Positions 576 through 34,328 of a stretch of 34,477 bases of DNA are shown piece after piece. Source of the DNA: a virus; IMG/VR virus record IMGVR_UViG_3300042691_014218, positions 1 through 34,477 of that record; one strand, 5' to 3'. The notes under the pieces were generated by a model. It made no database searches, was not told the origin of the DNA, and saw only the letters and a program-made list of their open reading frames with translations. How positions within the stretch are numbered: the first letter of the stretch is position 1; each line of letters begins with the position of its first letter. A program made the translations under genes and the position numbers.

Positions 576-603
576 AAACGACATCTGATTTGTATAGCAG
601 ATT

Positions 604-3954: not shown

Positions 3955-3955
3955 T

Positions 3956-6900
3956 ATGAACTTAGATTCTAAAAAACTTCTTCCACCATCAAAAAAAAGT
4001 GAAAGTCAGAAGATAAATGCTGATAAATTTTTAGTACCAGTAAAAAATATACAATATAAAAATATTGTAAAATTATCTGAGACTAAAGAAGATCAACCAA
4101 AAGTTGAAAAGTTTGGTTTAAAAGATGAAATTCTTTCTATAAAAGAATCAATTCTTTCTATTGAAAAATCTATAGCAAAGTCATTAGATCTACAAAAAGA
4201 AAAAATACTAAAGGATAAATTAGATCGAGAAAATAAAAGAAGACAAGATAAAGAAGAGAAATTAGAACAAAAAAAGGACTACGGTTTTGGTAAAATAATA
4301 AAGAATATTCCTAAACCAAAATTAAGTTTTATTGATTGGATTAAGCGATTTGTTTTAAATATGTTCCTTGGTTATTTTGCCGTTAGGGTGATTGATTATC
4401 TGCCAACTATAATATCAATAGCAAGTAAAATAACTCCAGCAATAAACTTTATTGGTTGGATGGGTAAAAATTTGTTGAAAGGGTTGATTGATTTTATTGA
4501 TTGGGGTTATAAAGCATATGATGCAACTCGTGGATTTATAAAACAAGTCGCTGGTGATGGAGCACAAAAACAATTTGATAGTTTCTCTAAAAATTTAAAT
4601 GATGTTTTAAATTATACAATAGTTACTGCTCTTGGTATTGCCGCTCTTGCTGATAAAGTTAGGGATAAAAATCCAAACAATAAAACAAATAAAAAAGGTC
4701 AACCCAGAGATCCTCGTACAAATAGACCAGTACCGACAGATAAAAAGGGAAATTATTCTTTCCATAGAAGTGGTGGTGCTTATAATAGAGAAGTATTCAG
4801 AAAAACTGATTGGTCATATAAGCAATATGACGCGAATGAAAATCAAATAATGAGGAGATACGCCAGAAAATATGGGCGTGATGCTGCAGTTGATAAGTTT
4901 GGTAAGGAAAGTGTAAAGGATATTGGTGGAAAGTATGGAAGATCTAAGTTAACTAATGCTGCAAGAGCAGGTGCTGTTAAATTAGTTGGAAAGTCTGGAG
5001 CAAAGACTGTTTTAAAATTTACTAGACCTCTTCTAAAAAGACTTCCTCTTATTGGAGCACTTATTGATTTTGGACTTTCTGTTGCTTTAGGTGAACCATT
5101 AGGTAGAGCAGCATTCTCTGCTATTGGTGCTGCTCTTTTAGGTACAATCGGTGCTGGATTTGGTGGTCCTATTGGAGCAGTTCTTGGTGGACTAGCTGGT
5201 AATTGGGCAGGTACAAAATTGTATGATATTTTATTTAATGGGAAGAAAGAACAGGGTAATAAAAAGGTTAAAGGTAAAGCATCTGGTGGACAGGTCACTT
5301 CTAGAGGTGGTACAACTGTAGGTGGATCTATTGGAAGAACACAAAAAGTAATTAGAAGAGTACCAAAACCACCTAAATTACAAGCACCAGAATCTATTCC
5401 AGGAAAAAATATTGGCGGTGAAAAGGTAATAGATAAAGTTTTTCCAAAAGAAACTTCACCAGAACATATTAGTCCTCTTAGATCTTTAAAAACTTCTTCA
5501 AGTATATTGAAAGGATCTGGGTCTACATTATTAAGTCAAACAATGGCAGTTGGTGTTGATCTTGCTATGGGGCAAAAACCAACAAAAGAATTTTATAGTA
5601 AATATGGAAAAGCGTTTGGGTCTTTTGTTCAGGAAATGGTTAATACTAATATGGAAATGACCACCCAAGAAACAGCAAGATCAATACTTGCTATGGCAAA
5701 CGGTGGAACAGTTCCATATAATATTCCATCTAGGGGACCAAATTTTGGTGAAAAGGTTGGGGAGATGGTGGCAACTGCATTTGCCAACACTGTTGAAAAA
5801 CAATCGTCATTAATATTAAATGCATTGAAAATAGAATCGAATAAAAAATCATATACTGGTATTACTGAAAGTGATCCTACATTGGAAGGTGATGATGAAG
5901 GTGGTGAAGGTGGTATGACTAAAGGTACGTGGGGACCACTTTTAGATTTAATTGCTGGTAAAGAATCTGGTGGAAATTATGAGGCAATGTATCCAAGCAC
6001 TACTTTAAAAGGTGCCACTAAAATGACAATCGCTGAAGTTGCCAGAAGAGCAACTGGTGCTGTAGGAAAATATCAACAACTTCCACAATACCTTGTCAAT
6101 CGAGCAAAGGCGGCAGGTCTTAATCCAGATAAAGATCTGTATAGTCCAGAAAATCAAGAAAAGATTATTATTAATGTTAATATCAAAGGAAGAGGTGGTG
6201 AAAGATGGTTAAAGGGTGAAATAAGTGATGAAGAATTTATGCAAGGATTATCACAAGAATTTGCATCTTTACCTAATGCTCAAGGTAAGTTTTATTATCC
6301 TGGGCAAAGTAGTGCAATGACCCCTGCAAAGGTAAAAGCAGCATTATCTAAAGTTAAGAAAGGTGGTTATTCTCAAGCAGAACTTGCTAAAGGTGGTAAA
6401 GATCCTTCGATTGGATTGGGTAAAGGATATGGTTCTGCTGGAGGAAAAATTGCTGGTGAATTGGGTAGGTATCTTAATAAAGCATTAGTTCCTGGAAAAG
6501 ATTTCCTTAGAGTTACAGAACATCCTGAACATGGTGGAGTTAGAGGTAGACATGCAAGAAATTCTTATCACTACGATGGTAGAGCAGTTGATATTGGTGC
6601 GTGGGATTGGGAACAACCAAAAATATTAAGAGCGATTGCAGACTTTAATAAGAAGCGTGGTGTAAAACCAGTTGAATTATTACATGCAAAAAATGAACCT
6701 TCTGGACATAGCGACCACGTTCACGTCGCATATAAACATGGTGGATTAGTAACAAAACCAACACATGCTTTAATTGGTGAAACTAAAAAACCAGAAATGG
6801 TATTGGATCCAGATACAACTGGGACAATGAATAAAGAATATCCTGGTATGTTGGCAAAGTTAAATGCTGCTAAAAATAAAAAGCAAATATCTGAAGTTTT

Positions 6901-7069
6901 AAATACCTATGCTTCTTATGAAAACAATAATGGTAAGTCTTCTATTATTCTGATACCGATAGAAAAAATTGTAAATAATACTATAACTAAACAAACACCA
7001 GGTCAATCAATGACTGGTGGAAGATCTTTTTCTTCTGATGGTTTAAACATCGAAACTTTACTAGCATGA
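3956..7069 (+). CDS. Tape-measure-like virion protein with lysozyme-like and M15-like peptidase domains
   Basis: 1037 residues, starting one base after the previous stop, with a GGGGTAGG ribosome-binding site. The basic Arg-Glu-Asn-Lys-Arg-Arg motif (about 90) and following hydrophobic block (about 124-185) copy the preceding gene. A second glycine-rich hydrophobic region lies at about 358-420. Residues about 650-790 resemble phage muramidases: Gly-Lys-Glu-Ser-Gly-Gly near the front (candidate catalytic Glu), Gly-Lys-Tyr-Gln-Gln-Leu-Pro, then Ser-Pro-Glu-Asn-Gln. Residues about 825-930 resemble M15-type peptidases: Tyr-His-Tyr-Asp-Gly-Arg-Ala-Val-Asp-Ile (about 870) and His-Ser-Asp-His-Val-His-Val (about 918-924), the metal-binding residues. 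The C-terminus has the Ala-Leu-Ile-Gly-Glu...Pro-Glu-Met-Val-Leu tape-measure signature. It probably opens the peptidoglycan at DNA entry. Confidence 0.65.
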   Translation: MNLDSKKLLPPSKKSESQKINADKFLVPVKNIQYKNIVKLSETKEDQPKVEKFGLKDEILSIKESILSIEKSIAKSLDLQKEKILKDKLDRENKRRQDKEEKLEQKKDYGFGKIIKNIPKPKLSFIDWIKRFVLNMFLGYFAVRVIDYLPTIISIASKITPAINFIGWMGKNLLKGLIDFIDWGYKAYDATRGFIKQVAGDGAQKQFDSFSKNLNDVLNYTIVTALGIAALADKVRDKNPNNKTNKKGQPRDPRTNRPVPTDKKGNYSFHRSGGAYNREVFRKTDWSYKQYDANENQIMRRYARKYGRDAAVDKFGKESVKDIGGKYGRSKLTNAARAGAVKLVGKSGAKTVLKFTRPLLKRLPLIGALIDFGLSVALGEPLGRAAFSAIGAALLGTIGAGFGGPIGAVLGGLAGNWAGTKLYDILFNGKKEQGNKKVKGKASGGQVTSRGGTTVGGSIGRTQKVIRRVPKPPKLQAPESIPGKNIGGEKVIDKVFPKETSPEHISPLRSLKTSSSILKGSGSTLLSQTMAVGVDLAMGQKPTKEFYSKYGKAFGSFVQEMVNTNMEMTTQETARSILAMANGGTVPYNIPSRGPNFGEKVGEMVATAFANTVEKQSSLILNALKIESNKKSYTGITESDPTLEGDDEGGEGGMTKGTWGPLLDLIAGKESGGNYEAMYPSTTLKGATKMTIAEVARRATGAVGKYQQLPQYLVNRAKAAGLNPDKDLYSPENQEKIIINVNIKGRGGERWLKGEISDEEFMQGLSQEFASLPNAQGKFYYPGQSSAMTPAKVKAALSKVKKGGYSQAELAKGGKDPSIGLGKGYGSAGGKIAGELGRYLNKALVPGKDFLRVTEHPEHGGVRGRHARNSYHYDGRAVDIGAWDWEQPKILRAIADFNKKRGVKPVELLHAKNEPSGHSDHVHVAYKHGGLVTKPTHALIGETKKPEMVLDPDTTGTMNKEYPGMLAKLNAAKNKKQISEVLNTYASYENNNGKSSIILIPIEKIVNNTITKQTPGQSMTGGRSFSSDGLNIETLLA

Positions 7070-8355
7070 GCACACCAAACATTGCTGCTAACCCAGCTAA
7101 TATAACTCTATTTAAAATATATTCTAATGTCAATGGAAACTCTTCTGATGTTAGGGGTGGTGTTGTAAACTTATCTTATTTTGAAAGCGTATTAGAAAAT
7201 ACTATAAGAGTTAGTGCTACAATAATTGATACTGGATCTGAAAATGGTAATGTATTGCAGTTACTGGAGTTGTCTGGGTTTGAAAAAGTTGAATTAGAAT
7301 TCAACGATAATCAAACATCTGAAAATAAACTTAGATTTACTGGAAACAACTCATTGTATATTTCAAAAATAAGAAACATATATTCACATACACAAAAGAC
7401 TGCATTCACAATAGACTTAGTTTCTAAAGAATTTCTTCTCAATGAACAAGAAAGTAGTTTAGTTTATAAAAGGTATGACGGTGAAATATCAAGTTCTGTT
7501 AAAAAAATAATGCAGGACTATCTTAAAACTAGTAAATCTATTTTTACTGATACCACTGTTAATACATATAATTTTATTGGTGATGCTAAAAAACCAATGA
7601 GATTATGTACTGAGATGGCGAGATTTTGTATACCTGATGGTGTTCCTGGAGCAAAAGGTAAAGTTGCTGGATACTTATTTTTTGAAACGTATGATGGTTA
7701 TAATTTCAAGTCTATAGATAAATTGCTAGATCCAGATAGAGGATATAATTCTTACATTTATAATATGAATACTGGATTGCCATCTGGATATACTGGTAAA
7801 ATATTGGAATATTATTCTGATAAAACTATTGATGTTCAAAAAAGATTAATGATTGGTGGATATGGTACTAAACTTGAGGGGTTTGATCCATATACGGATA
7901 AATTTGGATATGCTTTAGTTGATTCTAAAAATCAACCTCAACTTGGAGGTAAAAAAATGCCTAAATTGACTTCTGATTTTACTGGACCTTCTAGAAAATC
8001 AATAAGAAGACTTGATATAGGACAACTTCCAAATGGATCAACAAGTAAAGAACAATTGAAAGGTGCGTTTACTCAAAATTTAGATGCTGGTAATGTCATT
8101 GCACAATCTGCAATGAGATACAATCAGTTATTTACTTTAATAATGACTATAACTATTGCTGGAGATATTTCAATTAGGGCAGGTGATTTAATATATTGTG
8201 ATTTTCCAGGGACAACCCCAAAAGAAAACCCAGATCCAGATAAGGAAATAAGTGGTATATATATGATATCGGATATATGCCATTTTATAGAACCAAAAAG
8301 AACATTCACTAAAATGAATTTAGTTCGTGGTTCTTTTGGGAGAACACCAAAGTAA
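7066..8355 (+). CDS. 27: Baseplate hub subunit gp27-like
   Basis: 429 residues; T4 gp27 has 391. The order tape measure, this gene, gp5 hub fits gp27, which forms the trimeric ring joining gp5 to the tail tube. The N-terminal region (Phe-Lys-Ile-Tyr-Ser-Asn, then Leu-Ser-Tyr-Phe-Glu-Ser-Val-Leu-Glu-Asn-Thr) starts a beta-rich domain typical of hub proteins. The C-terminal region has a Gly-Asp-Ile-Ser-Ile-Arg-Ala-Gly-Asp-Leu-Ile-Tyr strand like the tube-like barrels of this family. The start overlaps the previous stop (ATGA). No membrane segment is visible. The call rests on order, size and general pattern more than on strong local identity. Confidence 0.65.
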   Translation: MSTPNIAANPANITLFKIYSNVNGNSSDVRGGVVNLSYFESVLENTIRVSATIIDTGSENGNVLQLLELSGFEKVELEFNDNQTSENKLRFTGNNSLYISKIRNIYSHTQKTAFTIDLVSKEFLLNEQESSLVYKRYDGEISSSVKKIMQDYLKTSKSIFTDTTVNTYNFIGDAKKPMRLCTEMARFCIPDGVPGAKGKVAGYLFFETYDGYNFKSIDKLLDPDRGYNSYIYNMNTGLPSGYTGKILEYYSDKTIDVQKRLMIGGYGTKLEGFDPYTDKFGYALVDSKNQPQLGGKKMPKLTSDFTGPSRKSIRRLDIGQLPNGSTSKEQLKGAFTQNLDAGNVIAQSAMRYNQLFTLIMTITIAGDISIRAGDLIYCDFPGTTPKENPDPDKEISGIYMISDICHFIEPKRTFTKMNLVRGSFGRTPK

Positions 8356-8367
8356 GGAGGTTAAATT

Positions 8368-8580
8368 ATGGACAATATCAATCAACATATTGACAGAGAT
8401 AGAAAAATACTTGAGGATCCAACTATTTCTTCTCAGGCAAGAAGACATACTAAAGAAGAACTAACTTCTCTTGAGAAATATAAGCAGCGTCATCCAGAAG
8501 ATGATCATGATCCAACACCATTTGAATTATATTGTGATGAAAATCCAAACGCTCTTGAATGTAGGATTTACGAAGACTGA
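8368..8580 (+). CDS. CP12-like small regulatory protein
   Basis: A 70-residue acidic protein with the signature end of CP12: Asp-Pro-x-x-Phe-Glu-x-Tyr-Cys, eight residues, Cys-Arg-Ile-Tyr-Glu-Asp (cysteines about 54 and 63). A Glu-Glu-Leu about two-thirds of the way before it recalls the CP12 core motif. CP12 redox-locks GAPDH and phosphoribulokinase and so switches off the Calvin cycle; cyanophages are known to carry it to redirect host carbon. The N-terminal cysteine pair of plant CP12 is absent, as in many cyanobacterial forms. Its own strong ribosome-binding site (TAAGGAGGT, 8353-8361) suggests high expression. It is unusual in sitting between two hub genes, where late timing would be expected. 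A structural role with coincidental similarity is possible but less likely. Confidence 0.75.
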   Translation: MDNINQHIDRDRKILEDPTISSQARRHTKEELTSLEKYKQRHPEDDHDPTPFELYCDENPNALECRIYED

Positions 8581-10946
8581 TGGAATTTACTGGATCTCTT
8601 TTTGATACAAATGCCCATGTTAACTATTGGGAAGGTATTGTTGTCGATAGGAATGAATGGCCAAGAACGGATACACCAATAAAGGATGCTAAAGAACTTA
8701 ACAACTGGGGTTATAGAGTTAAAGTAAGAATACAAGGAGTTCACCCTGCGGATAAAAATATATTACCAGATTCTAAATTACCCTGGATAGAACTTCCAGG
8801 TAGTTTTTTTGGTAGTGGTCATCGTGGTGCTGGAATTACTCCAGGTGTAACTCAAGGGTCTATTGTTTGGGGTATATGGGCAGTACCTTCACTTAAAAAA
8901 ACTCCTATTATATTAGGAGTAAAACAAAACAATGAGCAAACAAATTTAAGTAGAACTCAAGTTGGTGGTTTTGATCCATTTAGTGGGTTTAGTGATACTG
9001 ATACTGTTCCAGGATATTCTGTACCTTTAACTGAAGGAAATCCATTAGAAGGTATTGCTTTTGGTAATTTTTGGAACCAGTCTGATGCTGGTAAAATGGA
9101 AGAATATACTTTTGGTATAGATTCACCTAAACCATGTACAGCATCTCCATTATCTGAAATACAACTTACGATACAATCATTAATACAAAAAATAGAAAAA
9201 GTTCAAAGACAATTAAAAACTTGGGCAAGTGCTGCTCAGGGGTGGATTGCTGAAAAACAAGCATATATTAATAAGTTAATTGAAGAGGCAGCAAAAAAAG
9301 TTGCTGAAGGTATTAGATGGTTAATGGAAACCATTAGAAAATATGTAATGGAATATGTACAAGACAAAATTAAAAAATTATATTTTTTAATTAATCCTTC
9401 AGATAGAGATAAAGCAAAAACTGCTCAAGATAAAGTTGTTGAACTTATAACATGTTTGTTTAATAAAATTATCAATGGTTTATTGGGAATAGTTCTTGGT
9501 TTATTAAAAAATGCTTTAGGTAGATTTGTTAATGTGCCAAAGTGTGTTGTTGAAAATATAATGTCTTCACTACTTGGAAATCTTTTTGGGTTTATTGGTG
9601 GAGCAATAGACAATATTTTAAGTTCTATTTCATCATTAATTGGTGGAATTGCTAGTGTTGCTGATGGAATTCTTGGATTATTAAAAACTATACTAGGATT
9701 TTTCTCCTGTGATGATAATAATGATTGTCCAGAAACAACACAATGGAATATCTGGGGTGGTGGAAGACCATCTGCTACTTTTGATTTAGAATCAATATTT
9801 AATGAAGCTAAAAACATTGCATCCACTGTTAAAAATATTGCAGATCCAGATAATTTTAATTTTGATTTTACTGGAATGTTTTCTAATCTTGCAAGTGGTG
9901 TAACTGGTTGTTTTACTGGACCAGTTTTATGTGGACCACCAAGAGTAGAATTTTTTGGTGGTGGTGGAAGTGGTGCTAGTGCAAATGCAATTATAAGTGC
10001 TACTGGTGAAATTATGGGAGTTGATATTATTACACCTGGATCTGGATACAGTAAAGCACCGTTTGCTAATATTGTTGATGATTGTGGTAAAGGTAAAGGT
10101 GCTGTAGTAAGGGCAGTTATTGGTCCTGTCACAACTCCAACTTCTCCTACTACTGGCGGTACTACTACAGGAACTGGTGGAGAAACTGGTGGAACAAATA
10201 CTGGTACTGGTACGGGTACAGGTGGAGGTGTGGGTACGGGTGTTAATGGTAACGATGGAGGAACTGGAGCAGGTGCTGGAACAGGCACTGGATTAACAGA
10301 AACTTTGGGTGTTATTGCCGTAGTTGTTGAAGAACCAGGATTTGATTATATTCCTTCTCCAGATGGTGATTTAGGTGGTGATGGTAGGATATGGGCAACT
10401 GCTGATCAAACTATTGTCAGAAGAAGTGACGGAACGTATGATGATCCATATAATGACGATGAAGAAATACCAAATTTAAATCCTGGTGATTTTGTAAGCA
10501 CCCCTTCAGATAGAAATAGTTTAATTAACTTAGGTGGTGGAACTGGACAAGGAGTTGTTGGTGATGGATTTGTTGTTCGCAATTATCCTACTAGTGGTAG
10601 TGGTGAATATCCAGTTTTACTTTATCTTTGTGGAGTTGAAGTTGTTAGGTCTGGTATAAATTATTCTCCTACTGATAGAATTATCATAGAACCAAATATT
10701 ACTGGTACTATTTTAGAACCAGTTTGGGGACCATTTGGTGTTTTAGAAAAAGTAAATATACTTTCCCCTGGAATTGGATTTACCGAAAGACCACAAATCT
10801 ATGTTAAGAGTGACACAGGATATAACGCTCAACTCAATCCTGTATTTTGTGTAAATAGAGTGGGTGATGATACTGTTGGTGAAATTCCTTCAGATATTAC
10901 ACCAGATAAAATCTTAAAAGTTGTAGACTGTGTTGGAATAGTTTAA
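8580..10946 (+). CDS. 5: Baseplate hub/spike protein gp5-like, OB-fold domain, no recognisable lysozyme domain
   Basis: 788 residues; ATG overlaps the previous TGA. Residues about 10-120 form the gp5 N-terminal OB-fold: Val-Lys-Val-Arg-Ile-x-Gly-Val-His-Pro, then Leu-Pro-Trp-Ile, then Gly-Ser-Ile-Val-Trp-Gly and Ile-Ile-Leu-Gly-Val. T4 gp5 next has a lysozyme domain; none is recognisable here. Instead come a helical stretch (about 185-265), glycine/hydrophobic helices (about 285-380), then beta repeats of Pro-Gly-x-Gly-Tyr or similar (about 480-500, 575-600, 690, 730), common in cyanophage virion proteins. Between the first two is a Gly-Thr low-complexity run (about 520-570). It would form the centre of the hub with gp27, with the spike supplied by the next gene. 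Confidence 0.75.
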   Translation: MEFTGSLFDTNAHVNYWEGIVVDRNEWPRTDTPIKDAKELNNWGYRVKVRIQGVHPADKNILPDSKLPWIELPGSFFGSGHRGAGITPGVTQGSIVWGIWAVPSLKKTPIILGVKQNNEQTNLSRTQVGGFDPFSGFSDTDTVPGYSVPLTEGNPLEGIAFGNFWNQSDAGKMEEYTFGIDSPKPCTASPLSEIQLTIQSLIQKIEKVQRQLKTWASAAQGWIAEKQAYINKLIEEAAKKVAEGIRWLMETIRKYVMEYVQDKIKKLYFLINPSDRDKAKTAQDKVVELITCLFNKIINGLLGIVLGLLKNALGRFVNVPKCVVENIMSSLLGNLFGFIGGAIDNILSSISSLIGGIASVADGILGLLKTILGFFSCDDNNDCPETTQWNIWGGGRPSATFDLESIFNEAKNIASTVKNIADPDNFNFDFTGMFSNLASGVTGCFTGPVLCGPPRVEFFGGGGSGASANAIISATGEIMGVDIITPGSGYSKAPFANIVDDCGKGKGAVVRAVIGPVTTPTSPTTGGTTTGTGGETGGTNTGTGTGTGGGVGTGVNGNDGGTGAGAGTGTGLTETLGVIAVVVEEPGFDYIPSPDGDLGGDGRIWATADQTIVRRSDGTYDDPYNDDEEIPNLNPGDFVSTPSDRNSLINLGGGTGQGVVGDGFVVRNYPTSGSGEYPVLLYLCGVEVVRSGINYSPTDRIIIEPNITGTILEPVWGPFGVLEKVNILSPGIGFTERPQIYVKSDTGYNAQLNPVFCVNRVGDDTVGEIPSDITPDKILKVVDCVGIV

Positions 10947-11524
10947 TGGCAAAACCTAAAACAGAATCCAGAAGAATGGGAACTCATGAAGGTGAGTTAA
11001 AATTTGGTCATGTTGATATGAATGGAACAATGTCTGGTGTTCAATTGAGAAATGGTCCACCAGGACCAGATGCTGAACATTTTATGCAATTTTGTTCCAC
11101 TGGAAAGATGAAAGGTGGTACAATTAATCGATGCCCTACGGTATATCAAATTCATTGTGCGGAAAAATCTGTTGATGGTATAGGATTTATATTAAATGTT
11201 GCTGATGGTGATATTGTTTTACGTGCTGCAAATGGAAGAATACGTTTGATTGCTGATAATATTGATTTAAAAGCGCGAGGTAAGGACGGTAAAAATGGAT
11301 TTATAAATCTTGACGCTGATGAAAAAGTTGTAATGCGAGCAAAAAATATTGAGGTAAATGGTACGTCAGTAGTTAAATTTTTCTCTTCTGGATTGTGTGA
11401 AATTGTTGGTAAAAATACTCTAAATTTTTATGGGGGTCTTGTTGATTGTGCTGATGGTGCAACTACTGGATTAAATTCTAAACATACTTCTGGTTTAGAA
11501 ATACAAGAAATGTTTACTGTATAA
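10946..11524 (+). CDS. Beta-helical spike-like protein (gp5 C-terminal type)
   Basis: 192 residues; its ATG overlaps the hub-gene stop (TAATG). From about residue 75 there are alternating short strands ending in Asp/Asn-Gly: Gly-Asp-Ile-Val-Leu-Arg-Ala, Gly-Arg-Ile-Arg-Leu-Ile-Ala, Gly-Phe-Ile-Asn-Leu-Asp-Ala, Glu-Lys-Val-Val-Met-Arg-Ala. Such spacing is typical of triple-stranded beta-helix spikes of gp5C and VgrG proteins. In T4 this part belongs to gp5 itself and is cut from it after assembly; here it seems to be a separate gene. Several cysteines are present and no signal peptide. The assignment comes from the repeat pattern and location. Confidence 0.5.
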   Translation: MAKPKTESRRMGTHEGELKFGHVDMNGTMSGVQLRNGPPGPDAEHFMQFCSTGKMKGGTINRCPTVYQIHCAEKSVDGIGFILNVADGDIVLRAANGRIRLIADNIDLKARGKDGKNGFINLDADEKVVMRAKNIEVNGTSVVKFFSSGLCEIVGKNTLNFYGGLVDCADGATTGLNSKHTSGLEIQEMFTV

Positions 11525-11528
11525 GAAT

Positions 11529-12212
11529 ATGAAATTACCAGACATAGAAATAGGAAAAAGATTATTTTGTGGTAAAGGAAATCCTACAAATGTTTTAGGT
11601 GTTGGTCCTACAGAAGTTCGTGGTTCTGGATATATTGAAGGTCCAACTGTAACTGGGGATCCTAGTTTGTTTAAACCAGCGCCACAAGAAATGGCAACGG
11701 TGATGTGTGGTCCAACAAAAAATCCAGATGTTGTTAAAGTTGGCACTATACCATTTCTTTCCTTGTTTGTGCAAACTTATGCAAGGATTAAAGCTTTTTT
11801 GAAAGTTGATACTTTATTGTCAGTCAGGTTAATTAAATCTGATGTGATTTATACTAATGTTTTAATGGCGAACACTAAAAATTTCGTTATAGATCATCCA
11901 TTAAAAGAGGGTAAAAAATTAGTTCATGGATGCCTTGAAGGACCAGAACATTCTGTATATGTTAGAGGAAGATTAAGAAATAATAATATAATTGAATTGC
12001 CAGACTATTGGATTAACTTAGTTGATGAAACTACAATTACAGTTTCTTTGACTGCTATTGGTGCAGAACAATCTTTATTTGTTGCAAAAATTAAAGATAA
12101 TAAAATAGTTGTAGGTAACTATATGACTGAATTTGGTGAGTTACCAATAGATTGTTTTTACCATGTGTTCGCTGAAAGGAAAGATGTAAATAAATTAGAA
12201 ACGGAGATTTGA
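11529..12212 (+). CDS. Virion protein with fibre-type C-terminal domain (paralogue 1)
   Basis: 227 residues. The N-terminal 70 residues are rich in Gly, Pro and Thr and have no recognised fold; a tip role beside the spike is conceivable, but no PAAR motif is clear. From about residue 120 comes a domain shared with the next gene: Asp-His-Pro-Leu-Lys, Leu-Glu-Gly-Pro-Glu, Val-Tyr-Val-Arg-Gly-Arg-Leu, Leu-Pro-Asp-Tyr-Trp, closing with Ala-Glu-Arg-Lys-Asp. I know this type of domain from cyanophage tail-fibre and hub-distal proteins, where the biochemical role is unknown. It sits four bases after the spike-like gene, so is probably co-transcribed and part of the virion. Confidence 0.5.
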   Translation: MKLPDIEIGKRLFCGKGNPTNVLGVGPTEVRGSGYIEGPTVTGDPSLFKPAPQEMATVMCGPTKNPDVVKVGTIPFLSLFVQTYARIKAFLKVDTLLSVRLIKSDVIYTNVLMANTKNFVIDHPLKEGKKLVHGCLEGPEHSVYVRGRLRNNNIIELPDYWINLVDETTITVSLTAIGAEQSLFVAKIKDNKIVVGNYMTEFGELPIDCFYHVFAERKDVNKLETEI

Positions 12213-15824: not shown

Positions 15825-15895
15825 GCGGGTGTGGTGTAGAGGTAACATCTGAGCCTTCCAAGCTCCAGTCACGGGTTCGATCCCCGTCACCCGCT
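15825..15895 (+). tRNA. tRNA-Gly (anticodon TCC)
   Basis: A full 71-base cloverleaf: acceptor GCGGGTG pairs with CACCCGC, D stem GTGT/ACAT, anticodon loop CTTCCAA giving TCC (reads GGA), T arm ACGGG-TTCGATC-CCCGT. The CCA end is not encoded. GGA is a very common glycine codon in the late genes of this window, which would explain why the phage keeps it. Confidence 0.93.
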
Positions 15896-16994: not shown

Positions 16995-17068
16995 GCCTCT
17001 GTAGCTCAGTTGGATAGAGCAGGGCTTTTGTAAAGCTCAGGTCGCAAGTTCAAGTCTTGTCGGGGGCT
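16995..17068 (+). tRNA. tRNA-Thr (anticodon TGT)
   Basis: 74 bases: acceptor GCCTCTG pairs with CGGGGGC using two G-T pairs, D stem GCTC/GAGC, anticodon loop TTTGTAA giving TGT (reads ACA), T arm GCAAG-TTCAAGT-CTTGT. CCA is not encoded. ACA is frequent in the virion genes. A small GAGTT-AAT-AACTC hairpin follows at 17071-17083. Confidence 0.92.
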
Positions 17069-28205: not shown

Positions 28206-28742
28206 ATGAAGAATTATTTTGAAGCATTTACAATACCATATTGGCAAACTAAAGTAATAGATTGGGAATACAAGAAAAAATCTTTGCTATCATTACACTA
28301 TAATAATAAACATAATATGTGTGGTGGTGATGAACAATATACTGATTATAATAGTAAGAACTCTTATCATTCTCAAGTACAATCTATTTTATTAGATGAT
28401 CTTTATTCTGCTCGTAAAGCTTTAAACTTAGAACACCATACGCTCAGAGTGACCACTGCATGGTTTCAAATGTATGAGCAATATCACCATCATCCAATTC
28501 ATAATCATGGTATAAATGGATTTAGTTCTGTTTGTTATATTGAATATGACCATAATGAACATGAACCTACAAGATTTGTATGTCCATTTAATAGTTATAT
28601 TAATAATGATATGATAGAATTTATACCGAATGATATTGAAGAAGGTTCTATAGTATTCTTTCCTAGTAATGTACCTCACTATGTCGCACCAAATAAATCA
28701 ACAAAACCTAGATTAATATTATCCTTTAATATAACTTACTAA
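28206..28742 (+). CDS. Putative 2OG/Fe(II) oxygenase
   Basis: 178 residues. A His-rich His-His-His-Pro-Ile-His99-Asn-His101 gives the HxH pair; then Gly-Phe-Ser-Ser-Val-Cys-Tyr-Ile, Gly-Ser-Ile-Val-Phe-Phe-Pro-Ser-Asn-Val-Pro-His158 and Arg169-Leu-Ile-Leu-Ser-Phe-Asn. All the expected positions for a 2OG/Fe(II) oxygenase are present. It is not closely similar to its neighbours in the N-terminal half, so it is a separate subfamily. It is followed without gap by a membrane protein and the radical SAM gene. Confidence 0.7.
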   Translation: MKNYFEAFTIPYWQTKVIDWEYKKKSLLSLHYNNKHNMCGGDEQYTDYNSKNSYHSQVQSILLDDLYSARKALNLEHHTLRVTTAWFQMYEQYHHHPIHNHGINGFSSVCYIEYDHNEHEPTRFVCPFNSYINNDMIEFIPNDIEEGSIVFFPSNVPHYVAPNKSTKPRLILSFNITY

Positions 28743-28996
28743 TGATATATACCCAACAATATATTTTTTACTTATTAGTATTTTCTTTCATCGCTTATTT
28801 TGTAGTGACAGATGAGAGTATTGCTGCATTAGTTATTTTAAGTATAAAAATTTTAAGAAATAATATAGAAAGATTAATTTGGATGATTAGATTTCATCCT
28901 TTAGTAACTACAAACAAAATTATGCAGTGGTATATGATGCGTAAATATATGAAGGAGGCAGAAAAATTGCAAAAAGAACTATTTAAAGATGATTAG
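28742..28996 (+). CDS. Small membrane protein
   Basis: 84 residues; ATG overlaps the previous stop (TAATG). Hydrophobic residues about 6-24 (Tyr-Ile-Phe-Tyr-Leu-Leu-Val-Phe) and a second weaker stretch at about 28-38 suggest one or two membrane passes, followed by a basic and then Lys/Glu-rich cytoplasmic-type helix. No family recognised. A GAAGGAGG at 28951-28957 near its end may serve as an early ribosome-binding signal for the radical SAM gene, which it overlaps by eight bases. It could anchor the neighbouring enzymes at a membrane; that is inference. Confidence 0.5.
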   Translation: MIYTQQYIFYLLVFSFIAYFVVTDESIAALVILSIKILRNNIERLIWMIRFHPLVTTNKIMQWYMMRKYMKEAEKLQKELFKDD

Positions 28997-29807
28997 AATA
29001 CCTCACGAAGTTCAGTTACACATAACACATTCATGCAATTTGACATGTGAAGGATGTACTCACTATAGTAATCATGGACATTCTGGAATGTTATCTTTGG
29101 AAGAAGGATCAGAATGGATGGATAGGTGGAATAAAAGAATAATTCCAGAAAGATTTACTATTCTTGGTGGAGAACCAGCATTGAATAAAGATCTTACTAA
29201 ATTCATTTATCTTGCAAAAGAAAAATGGCCTAATTCATATTTGGAATTAATTTCCAATGGATTTCATTTACACAAACACCCAGATCTACCAAAGGCTTTG
29301 ATTGATACCCAAACTGTTATTGGTATTTCTGTTCATTCTAGAGAACATCCAGATTACATTGAGAAATTTAAACCAGTTTATAAATTGGCAAAAAAATGGT
29401 TATTGATGGGTGTAAAGGTCGAAATGAGACATTCATCTCTTGATTGGTTAAGGCAATATCAAGGGTATGGGGATAATATGCTCCCCTATGAAGACAATAA
29501 TCCAGAATCAAGTTGGAAAAACTGTGTTTCTAGAATGTGTATACAACTACATGAAGGTAAAATCTGGAAATGTCCAGGTTTAGCGTATTTACCTATGCAA
29601 GCAGAAAAATATAATCTTTCTGAAAAATGGGATAAATATCTGAAATATGAACCATTGCATCATGATTGTTCTGATGAAGAACTTGTTGAATTTTTTAATA
29701 GGAAATGGGAAACGTACTGTGATATGTGTCCAGCAAATAAAGAACATTTCAAACCATCTGCAGATCCATTATTACCAGTTAGTTATTGGAAAAAACTCAA
29801 CAAATAA
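28989..29807 (+). CDS. Radical SAM enzyme with extra C-terminal cysteines
   Basis: 272 residues. The cluster motif Cys16-x3-Cys20-x2-Cys23 (Cys-Asn-Leu-Thr-Cys-Glu-Gly-Cys) is at the front, followed by Leu-Gly-Gly-Glu-Pro-Ala-Leu (about 58-64, the SAM-binding GGE motif). The C-terminal third holds cysteines at Cys-Val-Ser-Arg-Met-Cys, Lys-Cys-Pro-Gly, Asp-Cys, and Cys-Asp-Met-Cys-Pro, which could carry a second iron-sulphur cluster as in SPASM or Twitch proteins. The chemistry (peptide, sugar or nucleoside modification) cannot be told. It lies among five 2OG/cupin genes with overlapping starts, so a shared pathway is likely. It differs in look from the phage QueE-type enzymes. Confidence 0.8.
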   Translation: MIRIPHEVQLHITHSCNLTCEGCTHYSNHGHSGMLSLEEGSEWMDRWNKRIIPERFTILGGEPALNKDLTKFIYLAKEKWPNSYLELISNGFHLHKHPDLPKALIDTQTVIGISVHSREHPDYIEKFKPVYKLAKKWLLMGVKVEMRHSSLDWLRQYQGYGDNMLPYEDNNPESSWKNCVSRMCIQLHEGKIWKCPGLAYLPMQAEKYNLSEKWDKYLKYEPLHHDCSDEELVEFFNRKWETYCDMCPANKEHFKPSADPLLPVSYWKKLNK

Positions 29808-29826: not shown

Positions 29827-30459
29827 ATGACAAAGCGTAAGAGAATATATCCACCAGATACAAGAACATTTACCACAATGAATTATTTTGGTAAGACTTT
29901 ATATCATGCATATAATGTCTTATCTGAAGAAGATATTGTAGGATTGATAGCAGAAATAGATGATGAGTTAAAAAATACTTCGGATAATAGAGATGGGTAC
30001 GTTGAAGCAACTAATTGTTTATCTGCAAGAAAAATAAAAAATAAAAAATGTTGGTATAATTTTTTTAAAATGGTGAAAACTCACCTTTATAATTATTCTG
30101 AGATAGTAAACCAACCATCAATTAAATCTTTGAAGGTTGCTTCATATTGGGCAAAAAGAATGTATAAAGGGATTACAGACGAACAATATGAAGAACAGAT
30201 GTACATTAATTATGGAAATGTTCACTCACACAATGATCTTGATTTGGGGATTATATATTACTTACAAAATCCATCTAGAATATATGGAACATTAATAGAA
30301 CATCAAGGTAGAGAGTTTATAGTTCCTGGAGATGAAAATTCTATGATTATCCATCATTCTGACATGAACCATGCCGCAGTTTTACCACCTCCAATACTAA
30401 CAAAAGATGACCCAAGATGCACTATTGTAGTAGATTTTAAATATGGACACAAATTCTGA
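29827..30459 (+). CDS. Putative 2OG/Fe(II) oxygenase, paralogue B of a duplicated pair
   Basis: 210 residues, closely related along its whole length to the gene at 27403: the same Tyr-Pro-Pro-Asp-Thr-Arg front, the same Lys-Lys-Cys-Trp-Tyr-Asn-Phe-Phe-Lys, the same His-Ser-His metal pair, Asn-Pro-Ser-Arg-Ile-Tyr-Gly-Thr, and final His and Arg positions. The main differences are in the middle (around Thr-Asp-Glu-Gln-Tyr) and near the C-terminus (Pro-Pro-Ile-Leu-Thr). All candidate catalytic residues are kept in both copies, so both may be active on different targets. It overlaps the next gene by 17 bases. Confidence 0.65.
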   Translation: MTKRKRIYPPDTRTFTTMNYFGKTLYHAYNVLSEEDIVGLIAEIDDELKNTSDNRDGYVEATNCLSARKIKNKKCWYNFFKMVKTHLYNYSEIVNQPSIKSLKVASYWAKRMYKGITDEQYEEQMYINYGNVHSHNDLDLGIIYYLQNPSRIYGTLIEHQGREFIVPGDENSMIIHHSDMNHAAVLPPPILTKDDPRCTIVVDFKYGHKF

Positions 30460-30907
30460 AAAAGAAAAAAGATTATCAGTAGTTAAAAAACAACTAGAAC
30501 ATCTTATTACCAAAATTAATAATAGATGTAACCCAGAAAATTATAACTCATTTTCTGAATTGTATGAATATGTTAAAACAACATCTACTACAGGTGTTCC
30601 ATCTTTTCTTAGTCCAGCGGAAGTTAGATTTATTCAATCAAATCCGCAGATTGAAAACAATATTTTAGATTTGTGTATTAAACAAAGAGAAAATGATAAA
30701 AAAAATAATTATTTCACAATAGGTAATATTTTAGATATTCTTTTGTTTACTAATAATTCTAATGATCTTTATAATTCAAAAATGACTGGTTTTAATAATC
30801 CTGACTTAGGTACTAGATTTTTGAAAGATCCTTCTTCACAACCAATACATGGGACTATAGAAGAAGTATTGGTCATGTTAGATTTGAGTATTGTTCCTTA
30901 TAGATGA
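30443..30907 (+). CDS. Hypothetical protein
   Basis: 154 residues, ATG inside the end of the preceding oxygenase. Helical front (Glu-Lys-Glu-Lys-Arg-Leu-Ser-Val-Val-Lys-Lys), Asn-rich middle, and no catalytic motif that I recognise. It is the last gene of the oxygenase run: a perfect hairpin begins at its stop codon and a new promoter-like element follows. Confidence 0.5.
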   Translation: MDTNSEKEKRLSVVKKQLEHLITKINNRCNPENYNSFSELYEYVKTTSTTGVPSFLSPAEVRFIQSNPQIENNILDLCIKQRENDKKNNYFTIGNILDILLFTNNSNDLYNSKMTGFNNPDLGTRFLKDPSSQPIHGTIEEVLVMLDLSIVPYR

Positions 30908-30930
30908 TAGACACTTTCGCAAGTGTCTAT
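30907..30930 (+). terminator. Ten-pair hairpin at operon boundary
   Basis: ATAGACACTT (30907-30916), loop TCGC, AAGTGTCTAT (30921-30930). Perfectly paired and beginning at the stop of the upstream gene, but with no T run after it, so it may be an RNA end-stabiliser or processing site rather than an intrinsic terminator. Confidence 0.45.
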
Positions 30931-30955
30931 GGATATGGTTTCAAAGTCTATTATG

Positions 30956-30964
30956 TGCTATACT
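30956..30964 (+). promoter_or_regulatory. Extended -10 promoter before RNA ligase
   Basis: TGC-TATACT at 30956-30964; no good -35. Transcription from about 30971 would leave ATG 30986 as first in-frame start, which agrees with the length of T4 RNA ligase 1. Confidence 0.45.
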
Positions 30965-30985
30965 ATGATTAATTACAGAATTGAA

Positions 30986-32155
30986 ATGTTGAACTATCAA
31001 TTTCCACAAATCAATAATATTTCCGATATTATTTGTCATATTGATGGTAGGGATGAATATAAAGTAAGTGTGAAAGACTGGTATACTGTTGTTAATTATG
31101 CAGTTGCTTTTGAGGATACATTTAAATGGGATGATGCTGATCAAATTGGATCTAAAATTCGTAGAGAATGTCGTGGTCTGATCTTTGATACTGAAACTGG
31201 GAAAATCATTTCTCGTCCGTATCATAAGTTCTTCAACGTTGGTGAGCGAGAAGAAACTGCTATCAACAAAGTTAATCTGTATGAACCTCATGTAGTTCTG
31301 GAGAAACTGGATGGTTCTATGATCCGTCCGATTCCTACTAAAGAAGGTTTTCGTCTTGGGACTAAAGCAGGCATTACTGATGTAGCAATGAACGCAGAAG
31401 TGTTTATCGCAGATAAACCAGAGTATCGTGAGTTCATTCTTGCTATGCTTGATGGTGGAATGACACCCATTTTTGAATGGTGTTCGCGTAAAAATCGTAT
31501 TGTTGTAGATTATCCTGATGATCAACTGATTCTCACTGGGGTTCGTAATACATTTAAGGGAACTTATCTTCTTCACTGGAACTTGGAAGAGTTTGGTGAA
31601 CACTATGGTATTCCTGTTGTAAAAGCAGTGGATGGTCTTGCTGTTCAAGATATTAACCTGTTTGTCAAGCAGGTTCGGGAATGGGATGATGGTGAGGGTA
31701 TTGTGCTACGATTTGACGATGGGCACATGGTTAAAGTGAAAGCGGATGAATATGTGCTCCGTCACAAATCGAAAGAACAAATTAGTCAAGAAAAAAATGT
31801 TCTTCAAATTATCATCAATGATTCTGTTGATGATATTGTCCCCTTATTGACACAAAATGATGCAACTCGTCTTAAAGAGTTTCAGACTGCTTTTTGGGCA
31901 TCTGTAGATGATTTGGCATATGAGATGGCACAGATCTATTTGGGTGGCAATACAGTGTATCCTGATAAGAAAGATTTTGCTGTTGAGTTTGTTCAGAAGA
32001 AGATTTTACCAATTCATGCTCCGATCATGTATGCTATGAAAGGTGGCAAGGGTTCCCGTGCTACCATTGTTGACATGATTAGTAAATCCTTGACTACTCA
32101 AACTAAAATTGATCAAAATCGTTGGTTATGGGGAGGTCTTGAATGGAATTCTTAA
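30986..32155 (+). CDS. rnlA: RNA ligase, T4 Rnl1 family
   Basis: 389 residues from ATG 30986; earlier in-frame starts at 30923, 30929 and 30935 fall in the hairpin or before the promoter. Nucleotidyltransferase motif I is Leu-Glu-Lys107-Leu-Asp-Gly-Ser (T4 Rnl1 Lys99). Upstream, Arg-Glu-Cys-Arg-Gly-Leu-Ile-Phe and Ser-Arg-Pro-Tyr-His-Lys-Phe-Phe-Asn match the Rnl1 family. Later come Phe-Glu-Trp-Cys (motif IIIa), Glu-Gly-Ile-Val-Leu (IV) and Val-Lys-Val-Lys (V). T4 is 374 residues. The enzyme seals RNA 3'-OH and 5'-phosphate ends, in T4 to mend tRNAs cut by host anticodon nucleases. The kinase and phosphatase it needs are 0.5-1.6 kb downstream. Codon use is richer in CGT than in the oxygenase genes before it. 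Confidence 0.85.
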   Translation: MLNYQFPQINNISDIICHIDGRDEYKVSVKDWYTVVNYAVAFEDTFKWDDADQIGSKIRRECRGLIFDTETGKIISRPYHKFFNVGEREETAINKVNLYEPHVVLEKLDGSMIRPIPTKEGFRLGTKAGITDVAMNAEVFIADKPEYREFILAMLDGGMTPIFEWCSRKNRIVVDYPDDQLILTGVRNTFKGTYLLHWNLEEFGEHYGIPVVKAVDGLAVQDINLFVKQVREWDDGEGIVLRFDDGHMVKVKADEYVLRHKSKEQISQEKNVLQIIINDSVDDIVPLLTQNDATRLKEFQTAFWASVDDLAYEMAQIYLGGNTVYPDKKDFAVEFVQKKILPIHAPIMYAMKGGKGSRATIVDMISKSLTTQTKIDQNRWLWGGLEWNS

Positions 32156-32183
32156 TAGATAGAATGTAGAGTAAATTAATTCA

Positions 32184-32660
32184 ATGGATCATCTAAAAAT
32201 TGAATCCTACAAAACAATTTTAGTTCTTAATTCTAGTTATGAACCAATAAATTTTACTAATTGGAAGAGAGCGGTTGTATTGTTATTAAAAGAGAAAGCG
32301 CAAATATTATCATCTAGAGTAATACGTTTATTGAATTATGTAAAGTTACCATTAAAAAAAATTATGGACGAAAAACCTTCACGAGCAATGATTTACAAAA
32401 GGGATAACCATACCTGTCAATATTGTGGATCGAAAAAATCACTTACTATTGATCATGTTATTCCTAAATCTAAAGGTGGACAAGATACATGGGAAAATAT
32501 GGTAGTTGCTTGTGCGCCATGTAATACTAAAAAAGGGCATACTTTACTTGAGCAAACTGGAATGAAATTGGTTAGGAAACCAAAAGCACCTCCAAATAAG
32601 ATGATTTTAGATATTGATAAATCTAATGTTCCAGAATGGAAAGAATATAACTATGTCTGA
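32184..32660 (+). CDS. Free-standing HNH endonuclease, cyanobacterial/cyanophage type
   Basis: 158 residues. The front (Leu-Val-Leu-Asn-Ser-Ser-Tyr-Glu-Pro-Ile-Asn) followed by Asn-Trp-Lys-Arg-Ala-Val-Val-Leu-Leu is shared by a common cyanobacterial HNH family. The nuclease core has Cys78-x2-Cys81, Asp90-His91, Asn105 and Cys110-x2-Cys113, so the zinc and catalytic positions are intact. AGA/AAA-rich codons differ from the neighbouring ligase and kinase, which suggests insertion into the repair operon. It may be a homing enzyme, or it may act on host DNA. The C-terminal eight bases overlap the kinase start. Confidence 0.88.
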   Translation: MDHLKIESYKTILVLNSSYEPINFTNWKRAVVLLLKEKAQILSSRVIRLLNYVKLPLKKIMDEKPSRAMIYKRDNHTCQYCGSKKSLTIDHVIPKSKGGQDTWENMVVACAPCNTKKGHTLLEQTGMKLVRKPKAPPNKMILDIDKSNVPEWKEYNYV

Positions 32661-33129
32661 ACTTATTATGCTATGTGGAATTCCTACTTCTGGAAAATCC
32701 ACATATGTTGAAAAACTGAAGAAACTGGACTACTGGAAAGATGCAGTAGTTCTTTCTACTGACAATTACATTGAGAAACAAGCACAACGTCTTGGACTGA
32801 CTTATAATCAGGTCTTTGATGATGTAATCAAAGATGCTACACGGGAACTTGAAATGGAGTTCAACTGGTCAAAATCTAAGGGTAGGAACATCATCTGGGA
32901 TCAGACAAACTTATCGGTCAAGACCCGAAAGAAAAAACTTTCTAAACTTCCTTCCATCTATAAGAGAGGTGTGGTATACTTTACTGTATCACTTGAGGAC
33001 GCACTGGAACGAAACAACCACCGTGAGGGAAAGTTTATTCCTGAAAGCATCTTAAAAAGGATGTACGAACAGTTTGCAATTCCAACTATTGAAGAGGGTT
33101 TTGATTATGTTGAAAAAGTTGAAAGTTAA
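32653..33129 (+). CDS. Polynucleotide 5'-kinase, T4 Pnkp N-terminal-domain type
   Basis: 158 residues from ATG 32653 (in-frame codons upstream lie inside the HNH gene). P-loop Gly9-Ile-Pro-Thr-Ser-Gly-Lys15-Ser16-Thr, the same numbering as Lys15/Ser16 of T4 Pnkp. Then Ser-Thr-Asp37-Asn-Tyr (T4 Asp35), Asp-Gln-Thr-Asn-Leu (T4 Asp-Thr-Asn-Leu) and Arg-Asn-Asn-His-Arg...Ile-Pro-Glu-Ser-Ile-Leu-Lys-Arg-Met-Tyr (lid region). T4 Arg38 corresponds to a non-basic residue here. The T4 enzyme has 301 residues with a phosphatase half; this protein stops after the kinase half. It would put 5'-phosphate on broken RNA or DNA for the nearby ligase. Confidence 0.8.
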   Translation: MSELIMLCGIPTSGKSTYVEKLKKLDYWKDAVVLSTDNYIEKQAQRLGLTYNQVFDDVIKDATRELEMEFNWSKSKGRNIIWDQTNLSVKTRKKKLSKLPSIYKRGVVYFTVSLEDALERNNHREGKFIPESILKRMYEQFAIPTIEEGFDYVEKVES

Positions 33130-33334
33130 AGAACCTTACAATCATCACTTTGAGTATCAGAGCGACATTGATCGCATCGTAAAAATCTTTGCCGATCGTG
33201 GTTATGAGATTTCACATTCTGATGCTGTTCGTGCGTGGGAACAATTCTCTGATGGTATGGCAGCAGGTTGGATGAGTTTAGGTTCTGATGCTGAGGTTTT
33301 TGATGATGCTTTTTATTATTTTGAGGAAGTATAA
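33107..33334 (+). CDS. Hypothetical small protein between kinase and phosphatase
   Basis: 75 residues from ATG 33107, eight bases after GAGGG; it overlaps the kinase end by 23 bases and the phosphatase start by one base. A Glu/Asp-rich C-terminal helix, and Asp-Ala-Val-Arg-Ala-Trp-Glu-Gln-Phe-Ser-Asp-Gly in the middle. No family recognised. It is inserted exactly at the place where T4 Pnkp joins its two domains, so it may be a spacer gene or a partner of one half. Confidence 0.55.
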   Translation: MLKKLKVKEPYNHHFEYQSDIDRIVKIFADRGYEISHSDAVRAWEQFSDGMAAGWMSLGSDAEVFDDAFYYFEEV

Positions 33335-33777
33335 TGAAACCGAGTTGTTATGTTTTTGATCTTGATGGTACTATTTGTAACGTCAAGCATCGCCGTCAGT
33401 ATGTTGCCACTAAACCTCGCAACTGGGATGCCTGGAACGCTGGACTTGTGAATGATAAACCAAATGAAGCGGTTCTTGGAATTATTCATTCTCTCACATA
33501 TTATTATCCGATTTTTATTGTTAGTGGAAGGTCTGATGATTACAGAGTTCAAACCGAAGAATGGTTAGAAAAGCATGGTATTTCTTATAATGCTTTGTAT
33601 ATGAGAAAATATAAGGATCATCGTGATGATGCTGTAGTTAAGGCAGAAATTGCAGATGAAATTGATAAAACTCATCATATTATTGGTGTTTTTGATGATC
33701 GAAAGAGAGTTGTTGATATGTGGATTAATAGAGGTATATGGGTTTTTGATGTTGGACAGGGCAAAGGTGAGTTTTAG
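33334..33777 (+). CDS. HAD-family 3'-phosphatase, T4 Pnkp C-terminal-domain type
   Basis: 147 residues. Phe-Asp9-Leu-Asp11-Gly-Thr (HAD motif I; T4 Asp165/Asp167), Val-Ser-Gly-Arg (motif II; T4 Ser211-Gly-Arg), Arg-Asp-Asp-Ala-Val-Val-Lys (motif III) and Phe-Asp-Asp-Arg...Val-Val-Asp-Met-Trp (motif IV; T4 Asp277/278, Val-Val-Glu-Met-Trp) match in order. It would remove 3'-phosphate or 2',3'-cyclic phosphate from cleaved RNA. With the kinase, it makes up a Pnkp split over two genes. Start ATG overlaps the previous TAA. Confidence 0.8.
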   Translation: MKPSCYVFDLDGTICNVKHRRQYVATKPRNWDAWNAGLVNDKPNEAVLGIIHSLTYYYPIFIVSGRSDDYRVQTEEWLEKHGISYNALYMRKYKDHRDDAVVKAEIADEIDKTHHIIGVFDDRKRVVDMWINRGIWVFDVGQGKGEF

Positions 33778-33779
33778 TT

Positions 33780-34328
33780 ATGTCTTATATTAAGTTAAAA
33801 GATAAATTTTTTGTAGGTAAATATGATATAATTTCTAGAAAATATCAGTATGGATTAAATACACCTAATGGATTTTATGGAATAAAATATTCATATATTG
33901 ATCTTTCAAATTCCAATGAACTTCTTCAAGTAATACCCGAACACCATAGAGACAAATGTACATTGTCTGTGATGGATTTAAATCATAGAATTCCACCACA
34001 CACTGACAGTGGCATTGAAGCAATTATTAATTTCTACATAAAAACTGATAATTGTAAAACTCAATTTTATAAGTTTAAAACTTCAGATCCTAAAGAATTT
34101 AAATTACCAACACAAAGAGATGGATCTATTTTTGATGAAAATGATCTGGATGAAACAGAAAGTTTTATTTCTCAAGTTGGCGATGCGTATCTTTTAGACG
34201 TATCGCAACCTCATGCTGTTATTCCACTGCATGATGGACCTGTTGATAGGAAAGCAATTTGTCTTCAGTTGCTTTACACTACTTTTTCTGAAGCAAAACA
34301 ACTCTTAAAACAAACTAATCAAATTTGA
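33780..34328 (+). CDS. Putative 2OG/Fe(II) oxygenase with canonical HxD
   Basis: 182 residues. Pro-His74-Thr-Asp76 is a true HxD, followed by a Phe-Tyr-Ile strand, Gly-Asp-Ala-Tyr-Leu-Leu-Asp, then Gln-Pro-His145 and Arg157-Lys-Ala-Ile-Cys-Leu. All four expected residues are present, which makes it the most canonical of the oxygenases in this window. It does not resemble the others closely. It directly follows the RNA-repair genes; no link to RNA repair is visible. Codon use is AGA-rich again. Start two bases after the phosphatase stop. Confidence 0.7.
   Translation: MSYIKLKDKFFVGKYDIISRKYQYGLNTPNGFYGIKYSYIDLSNSNELLQVIPEHHRDKCTLSVMDLNHRIPPHTDSGIEAIINFYIKTDNCKTQFYKFKTSDPKEFKLPTQRDGSIFDENDLDETESFISQVGDAYLLDVSQPHAVIPLHDGPVDRKAICLQLLYTTFSEAKQLLKQTNQI

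Follow-up and report, generated by a model that had tools for sequence, protein, structure and literature searches.

The virus record IMGVR_UViG_3300042691_014218 comprises 34,477 bases, and the whole of this DNA is referred to here as the window. Near its right end lie five genes in one direction, encoding an RNA ligase (LIG), an HNH endonuclease-family protein (HNH), a kinase (KIN), a protein of 75 residues (SML) and a phosphatase (HAD). An earlier note on this DNA had claimed these genes in this order, and open reading frames (ORFs) together with Pfam matches bear it out, SML by its ORF alone. The cassette spans positions 30923-33777 and neighbouring genes overlap or almost touch (Table 1). 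The overlap is 8 nt between HNH and KIN and 23 nt between KIN and SML, and the stop codon of SML overlaps the start of HAD (TAATG), as expected for a single co-translated unit. Because homologues occur in the same order in other viral contigs, and pairwise dN/dS is 0.07-0.27 for all five genes (purifying selection; at most 10 relatives, where dS was unsaturated), the arrangement is not due to chance.

We take the window to be from a cyanophage, a sound assumption because for the structural protein encoded at 1495-3954 all 26 matching records are cyanophages or marine viruses, and there are further ORFs with matches to tail tube, baseplate hub and helicase families. At the megablast level, positions 1-12000 gave no match to phage records.

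Table 1. The five-gene cassette and other features of the window.
Feature	Position	Strand	Description	Evidence
LIG	30986-32155	+	Rnl1-type (T4 RnlA-like) RNA ligase, 389 aa from ATG	Pfam RNA_lig_T4_1, E 1.3e-30
HNH	32184-32660	+	HNH endonuclease-family gene	Pfam HNH, E 4.9e-17; phrog_16726, 1.5e-61
KIN	32653-33129	+	Stand-alone PNK-like P-loop kinase, predicted 5'-OH polynucleotide kinase, 158 aa, ATG start	AAA_33, E 2.1e-17
SML	33107-33334	+	Function unassigned, 75 aa, ATG start, overlaps 3' end of KIN	ORF
HAD	33334-33777	+	Stand-alone Pnkp-type phosphatase, predicted to remove 3'-phosphate or 2',3'-cyclic phosphate, 147 aa	Pfam HAD_PNKP (PF25109), E 1.4e-28
Hairpin	30907-30930	+	10-bp perfect stem, TCGC loop, between upstream gene and LIG	Fold of 30895-30945: -13.2 kcal/mol, z -2.56
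tRNA-Gly (TCC)	15825-15895
tRNA-Thr (TGT)	16995-17068
2OG-Fe(II) oxygenase-like gene	28206-28742
Radical SAM gene	28989-29807
2OG-Fe(II) oxygenase-like gene	29827-30459
ORF just past HAD	33780-34328		Oxygenase-like by eye	No family match

Families of the ligase, phosphatase and kinase

The LIG reading frame is open from a GTG at 30923 (30923-32155). The ATG at 30986 is the likelier start, because the homologue in Synechococcus phage B23 starts with MLNYQFP and the GTG lies inside the hairpin, which also overlaps the stop codon of the upstream gene. LIG matches the RnlA family phrog_562 (1.6e-71) and the solved T4 Rnl1 structures 2c5u, 9do4 and 5tt6 (E 7e-18 to 5e-17), and it contains KLDG (motif I, the nucleotidyltransferase KxDG), FEW, EGIVLRF and VKVK, covering motifs IV and V. 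The match to T4_Rnl1_C, the C-terminal tRNA-specificity domain, is weak (19.8 bits, cut-off 27), and the score against the NCBI equivalog TIGR02308 is 123.6 bits (E 1e-35), under the cut-off of 242.25. On sequence grounds LIG is classed as a divergent Rnl1 relative.

Whether the HAD protein belongs with the Pnkp phosphatases had been set beforehand as a test, and it does. It exceeds the PF25109 cut-off of 27.6 with 100.3 bits, matches phrog_415 (1.7e-38) and has Pnkp1 (4xrp, 1.3e-13) and T4 Pnkp (1ltq, 1.4e-6) as closest solved chains. All 11 T4 active-site positions that were checked are kept, including D165, D167, R176, R213, D254, K258 and D277/D278.

KIN, with 64.2 bits against AAA_33 (cut-off 27), has more than one group of possible relatives. 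It might not be a polynucleotide kinase but phosphorylate some other RNA-linked or small substrate, as L-seryl-tRNA kinase (PSTK) or zeta toxins do; single-sequence searches rank PSTK first, and there is a weak Pfam match to Zeta_toxin. With a 28-row profile, on the other hand, T4 Pnkp comes first (E 3.3e-14), followed by PSTK (2e-13) and Pnkp1 (7e-12). The AlphaFold2 model (pLDDT, the predicted local distance difference test, 94.9) was compared with solved structures, and the Pnkp kinases of C. thermocellum (Z 17.2, root-mean-square deviation 2.6, 147 residues) and T4 (Z 16.7, 2.6, 141 residues) head the list, although PSTK (Z 16.5, 2.5, 146 residues) ties with both.

The active site was compared at positions that we take to be catalytic in T4 Pnkp. 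Equivalents of T4 K15, S16, D35 and R126 are found in KIN as K15, S16, D37 and R124, but Ile40 occupies the position of Arg38 and Gln84 that of Asp85. The earlier note had described the motifs of all three enzymes as intact-looking, which holds for the ligase and the phosphatase and not for these two positions of the kinase. Both replacements are general in an alignment of 100 rows, made up of 85 window-like kinases, 12 fused Pnkps and 3 HD-linked or reversed fusions. Arg38 is replaced in all 85 window-like kinases (Ile in 62, Val in 12, Leu in 8, Phe in 2 and Met in 1) and kept in 12/12 fused Pnkps; Asp85 is likewise replaced in 85/85 (Gln in 78, Arg in 5, His in 2) and kept in 11 of the 12 fused enzymes. 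The equivalents of Lys15 and Asp35 are kept in all 85 window-like kinases and that of Arg126 in 81.

The loss of Arg38 and Asp85 also favours a different substrate. Against it, a quick tree of the 100 rows places the 85 window-like kinases on one side together with the kinase domain of the HD-kinase protein of Campylobacter phage CP220 (branch support 98). A PSTK-like or zeta-toxin-like role for KIN is thus improbable, and we keep to the prediction of a 5'-OH polynucleotide kinase. Together, the Rnl1-type, PNK-like and Pnkp-type HAD families support the RNA-repair gene set proposed in the earlier note.

Separate kinase and phosphatase genes among relatives

Relatives of KIN, HAD, SML and LIG were taken from viral contigs (50, 30, 16 and 74 loci, respectively) and from named phages. 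No fusion of KIN and HAD was found in the 98 loci holding both genes, which represent 47 distinct loci by DNA. These 47 fall into nine arrangements and four orders of the ligase, kinase and phosphatase genes. The most frequent are HAD-LIG-KIN (16 loci) and LIG-KIN-HAD (15), followed by LIG-HNH-KIN-SML-HAD (6, including the window and a near-identical contig), LIG-KIN-SML-HAD (3), LIG-HNH-KIN-HAD (2) and HAD-KIN-LIG (2), with HNH-LIG-KIN-SML-HAD, KIN-HAD-LIG and, at a contig edge, KIN-SML-HAD found once each. Loci with short matches, including one with its kinase match in two pieces (L149), were dropped from this count by length limits. Two apparent LIG-KIN fusions (L130 and L148) were rejected as artefacts, since the frame at the first base of the ligase match is the kinase ORF, which ends 18 nt further on.

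Since the sample was drawn with the window proteins as queries, the split is the rule among relatives of the window and not among all phages; fused T4-type Pnkp genes do occur in other phages, six of them confirmed by record. The earlier note saw in KIN and HAD the halves of a two-domain Pnkp, with another gene placed where the domains would join. This is not supported, given the uniform separateness and varied order of the genes, with HAD upstream of the ligase in phages of Roseobacter-group hosts. Within the sample split forms are universal, which comes close to what the earlier note itself had named as counting against its idea.

The history of the two domains was examined in trees. For the kinase, a careful tree was made with 56 sequences hand-thinned from the 100; it unites the 12 fused domains in a group that excludes the window kinase (99/96) and recurs in all 200 bootstrap trees, although the bootstrap had not quite settled. 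For the phosphatase, a tree of 61 rows was built after five long-branch rows of 66 had been dropped (PAC8, tuinn, nt-1, CcrSC and S-TIM61). Here 11 fused HAD domains form one group (99/99) and the window HAD belongs to a clade of 29 rows (100/99). The spacing of the HAD domain differs as well: of the 54 HADs that are not T4-type fusions, 53 have a stretch of 18-20 residues after motif I, the sole exception being tuinn, annotated from a late start and lacking motif I, and in the fused HADs this stretch is 10 residues in 10 of 12, with 14 and 16 in the other two. An approximately unbiased (AU) test in which only the window HAD was held with the fused HADs gave p 0.006; it was not used, because tearing this protein from its nearest relatives, up to 90% identical, would alone cause rejection.

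These results bear on the idea that a T4-type Pnkp came apart where its two domains meet, either in this phage or in recent ancestors of it, and that SML was inserted at the break. The kinase-to-phosphatase gene order equals the domain order of T4 Pnkp, and both proteins are related to Pnkp domains. However, none of the 98 loci is fused, many relatives without SML still keep two genes, HAD precedes the ligase in the most frequent arrangement, and Arg38 and Asp85 are absent from the kinase. LIG-KIN-HAD without SML is found in 15 distinct loci; in nine of these KIN and HAD are 4-98 nt apart (by matched ends), and in six a deaminase gene lies between them. Because each of the two trees sets the fused domains apart as a group and the motif I spacing differs, such a break is very unlikely, and a recent one was rejected on gene order, the universality of the split and the trees.

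We therefore interpret the locus, with a probability of about 0.78, as a modular cassette of a T4-related cyanophage that would heal and seal RNA ends with a kinase, a phosphatase and a ligase. On this reading the genes for the two healing steps are independent, stem from different lineages and are co-expressed with the ligase gene, instead of being halves of a recently broken Pnkp. The two lineages are best explained as one family of stand-alone PNK-like kinases and one of stand-alone Pnkp-type HAD proteins.

Several observations weigh against this interpretation. The two replaced residues in the kinase active site have been described above. An AU test did not reject a tree joining the fused kinases with the window clade (p 0.198), which also leaves room for a broken Pnkp, so that the kinase may share a remote ancestor, fused or not, with T4-type Pnkp or stem from a very old split. 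In the HAD tree an unstarred branch (92/67) has both the fused domains and the window clade on one side. Nor is the cassette obligate. Phages B23, Cr30 and BUCT-ZZ01 have ligase and kinase and no PF25109 match in the whole record (PF25109 was found in 4 of the 7 whole records searched), and six loci (L083-L088) have a short ligase, HNH and HAD without a kinase; the ligase of L083, for which length and sequence were seen, has 246 aa and lacks the C-terminal part. Furthermore, T4 Rnl1 also promotes tail-fibre attachment and phrog_562 is labelled 'RNA ligase and tail fiber protein attachment catalyst', so that a ligase alone need not mean RNA repair.

The last point leads to the possibility that the ligase serves mainly in tail-fibre attachment, with the kinase and HAD acting in nucleotide or DNA-end metabolism and the set not being an RNA-repair unit. 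PNKP enzymes also heal DNA ends, and in phage QDWS359 a HAD_PNKP gene adjoins a gene annotated as DNA ligase. Among 56 distinct relatives of the ligase, the fetched locus contains both KIN and HAD in 31, KIN only in 12, HAD only in one and neither in 12; the ligase thus stands without a kinase in 13, some of them at contig edges. A kinase homologue is linked in the other 43, however, and for the 35 ligase relatives with at least 4 kb on both sides the corresponding numbers are 21, 7, 0 and 7. Relatives also have RNA-related partners nearby, namely Thg1 and a CCA-adding enzyme in Rhizobium phage RHph_I1_18 and a ligase with a kinase-HD protein in Bacillus phage FADO. We regard a tail-fibre and DNA-end role as unlikely, though somewhat less so than a non-polynucleotide substrate for KIN.

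Linkage was also viewed from the kinase. In 28 viral records with a kinase and no ligase nearby, all of them fragments, PF09511 was found somewhere in 9 and PF25109 in 5; 11 exceeded the PF09414 cut-off, but PF09414 also scores in 6 of 14 control genomes. A kinase scan of genome contigs gave one locus and was uninformative because a single pattern was used.

Variable slots of the cassette

The position between ligase and kinase is filled differently among relatives, by HNH, by nothing, by HNH plus a repetitive ORF (L129) or, in phage FADO, by a gene annotated as homing endonuclease. Since the content of this slot varies and many relatives lack HNH, the gene is more likely a passenger than a repair component. 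Homologues of HNH were found with tblastn on cyanobacterial and other bacterial plasmids, the best in Acaryochloris (45.5%). The repetitive ORF of L129 (7692-8663) has ELGxGIHG repeats, with further copies at several places in the locus, and looks like a mobile endonuclease family. In another locus (L016) a GIY-YIG ORF (3869-4516, minus strand) lies within the ligase gene and runs against it, which may reflect an intron, an insertion or a broken gene.

Between kinase and phosphatase, relatives have SML, nothing or a 125-aa zinc deaminase. SML gave no match over a cut-off in Pfam, PHROG or NCBIfam and one weak match among 50,697 phage records; its 12 distinct sequences have a mean column identity of 88%. 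The SML model is helical and of middling confidence (pLDDT 74.5), and a structure search with it gave no viral match at E <= 0.001. The deaminase, of the cytidine/deoxycytidylate type, is represented by L070 (5625-6002, PF00383, 5.1e-10) and recurs in L071, L076, L118, L120, L121 and L123; it lies between kinase and phosphatase in six distinct loci. In L102, SML stands beside a related deaminase gene (6231-6662), away from the kinase. HNH and SML are best explained as passengers or accessories that can be exchanged within slots of the cassette.

A more far-reaching proposal is that KIN represents a family of polynucleotide kinases, specific to phages and so far unrecognised, whose substrate pocket has been rebuilt (Ser/Thr-Asp-x-x-aliphatic and Asp-Gln-Thr-Asn), and that the KIN-HAD slot holds exchangeable lesion-specific modules, SML here and the zinc deaminase in the six other distinct loci. 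Although it is unlikely that both parts hold, such a cassette could edit and reseal damaged RNA, for example at an anticodon base.

Outside the cassette, the two 2OG-Fe(II) oxygenase-like genes and the radical SAM gene lie beside it on the ligase side, and the ORF just past HAD is listed with them in Table 1.

Predicted role and comparison with known systems

In the predicted pathway, a host ribonuclease would cut tRNA or another RNA, leaving a 2',3'-cyclic phosphate (or 3'-phosphate) and a 5'-OH end. The HAD enzyme would remove the 3' or cyclic phosphate, the separate P-loop kinase would phosphorylate the 5'-OH using a nucleoside triphosphate, and the Rnl1-type ligase would join the RNA ends with ATP. 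The cassette thus probably undoes host RNA cleavage, which fits a jumbo-phage review stating that ATP-dependent RNA ligases come together with polynucleotide kinases and phosphatases (PMC7824862); the review also describes the Pnkp-type HAD as 'usually' fused to a kinase. By analogy with T4, an anticodon nuclease is a plausible target defence. The T4 route, as given in PMC3400036, begins with a nuclease such as PrrC, which leaves a 2',3'-cyclic phosphate and a 5'-OH, after which Pnkp heals both ends and Rnl1 seals them. The earlier note had also drawn on two tRNA genes in the window as support for a tRNA-centred strategy. Both are real, but they lie ~14-15 kb from the cassette and, tRNA genes being common in phages, lend weak support to tRNA repair.

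The chemistry, the pathway and the enzyme families are already known, and deposited genomes of Ruegeria/Roseobacter phages contain kinase and HAD as separate genes. A literature search of titles and abstracts found no description of a split kinase/phosphatase cassette in cyanophages and no remark on the separateness. A paper on cluster O phages mentions a T4-like RNA ligase and nowhere in its text a polynucleotide kinase (PMC10783043). What is new is how consistently the genes are split, together with the distinct active site of the kinase and the exchangeable slot. These points imply that phages can build a T4-style RNA end-healing pathway from separate, swappable parts instead of one fused enzyme, and they open a stand-alone kinase family with an altered active site to direct testing. 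The slot taken by a deaminase in some loci and by a 75-residue protein in others is a lead on the ways in which phages fit RNA repair to specific host nucleases.

Compared with T4 Pnkp (PseT) and Rnl1, the cassette has the same three predicted activities and the same ligase family, and its HAD keeps the checked active-site positions. It differs in that kinase and phosphatase are two ORFs and not one polypeptide, in the distinct group and replaced residues of its kinase, and in about 10 extra residues after motif I of its HAD.

The Ruegeria/Roseobacter phages DSS3P8, DSS3_MAL1 and RpAliso are similar in that the ligase is directly followed by a stand-alone kinase and HAD_PNKP is a separate gene, but their HAD lies upstream of the ligase and NAD+-synthesis genes follow the set. 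In three loci of such phages (L003, 6631-9430; L004, 6485-9308; L008, 6541-9333), the ligase-kinase pair is closely followed downstream by genes for NadM-Nudix and nicotinamide/nicotinate phosphoribosyltransferase, which puts RNA repair and NAD+ restoration side by side. In RHph_I1_18 (L197, 582-4111), a Thg1-like gene, an Rnl1-type ligase and a stand-alone kinase have a CCA-adding enzyme upstream, and a 350-aa ORF appears nucleotidyltransferase-like by eye. The NAD+-synthesis neighbours in Ruegeria phages and the tRNA-associated enzymes in RHph_I1_18 suggest a counter-defence neighbourhood.

In the CP220 HD-kinase the kinase domain groups inside the window-like kinases, and the kinase-HD protein of FADO has a related kinase domain near an RnlA-like ligase; the phosphoesterase partner in both is a fused HD domain, unlike the separate HAD of the window. 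Bacterial HD-Pnk, including that of Runella, is a related fusion, and RNA repair systems were reportedly treated by Burroughs and Aravind in 2016. The bacterial Pnkp1-Rnl-Hen1 complex (4xrp) gives the best solved-structure match of the window HAD, and its kinase fold also matches, but kinase and HAD are fused in Pnkp1. The bacterial Pnkp1-Rnl complex has the methyltransferase Hen1 as a partner.

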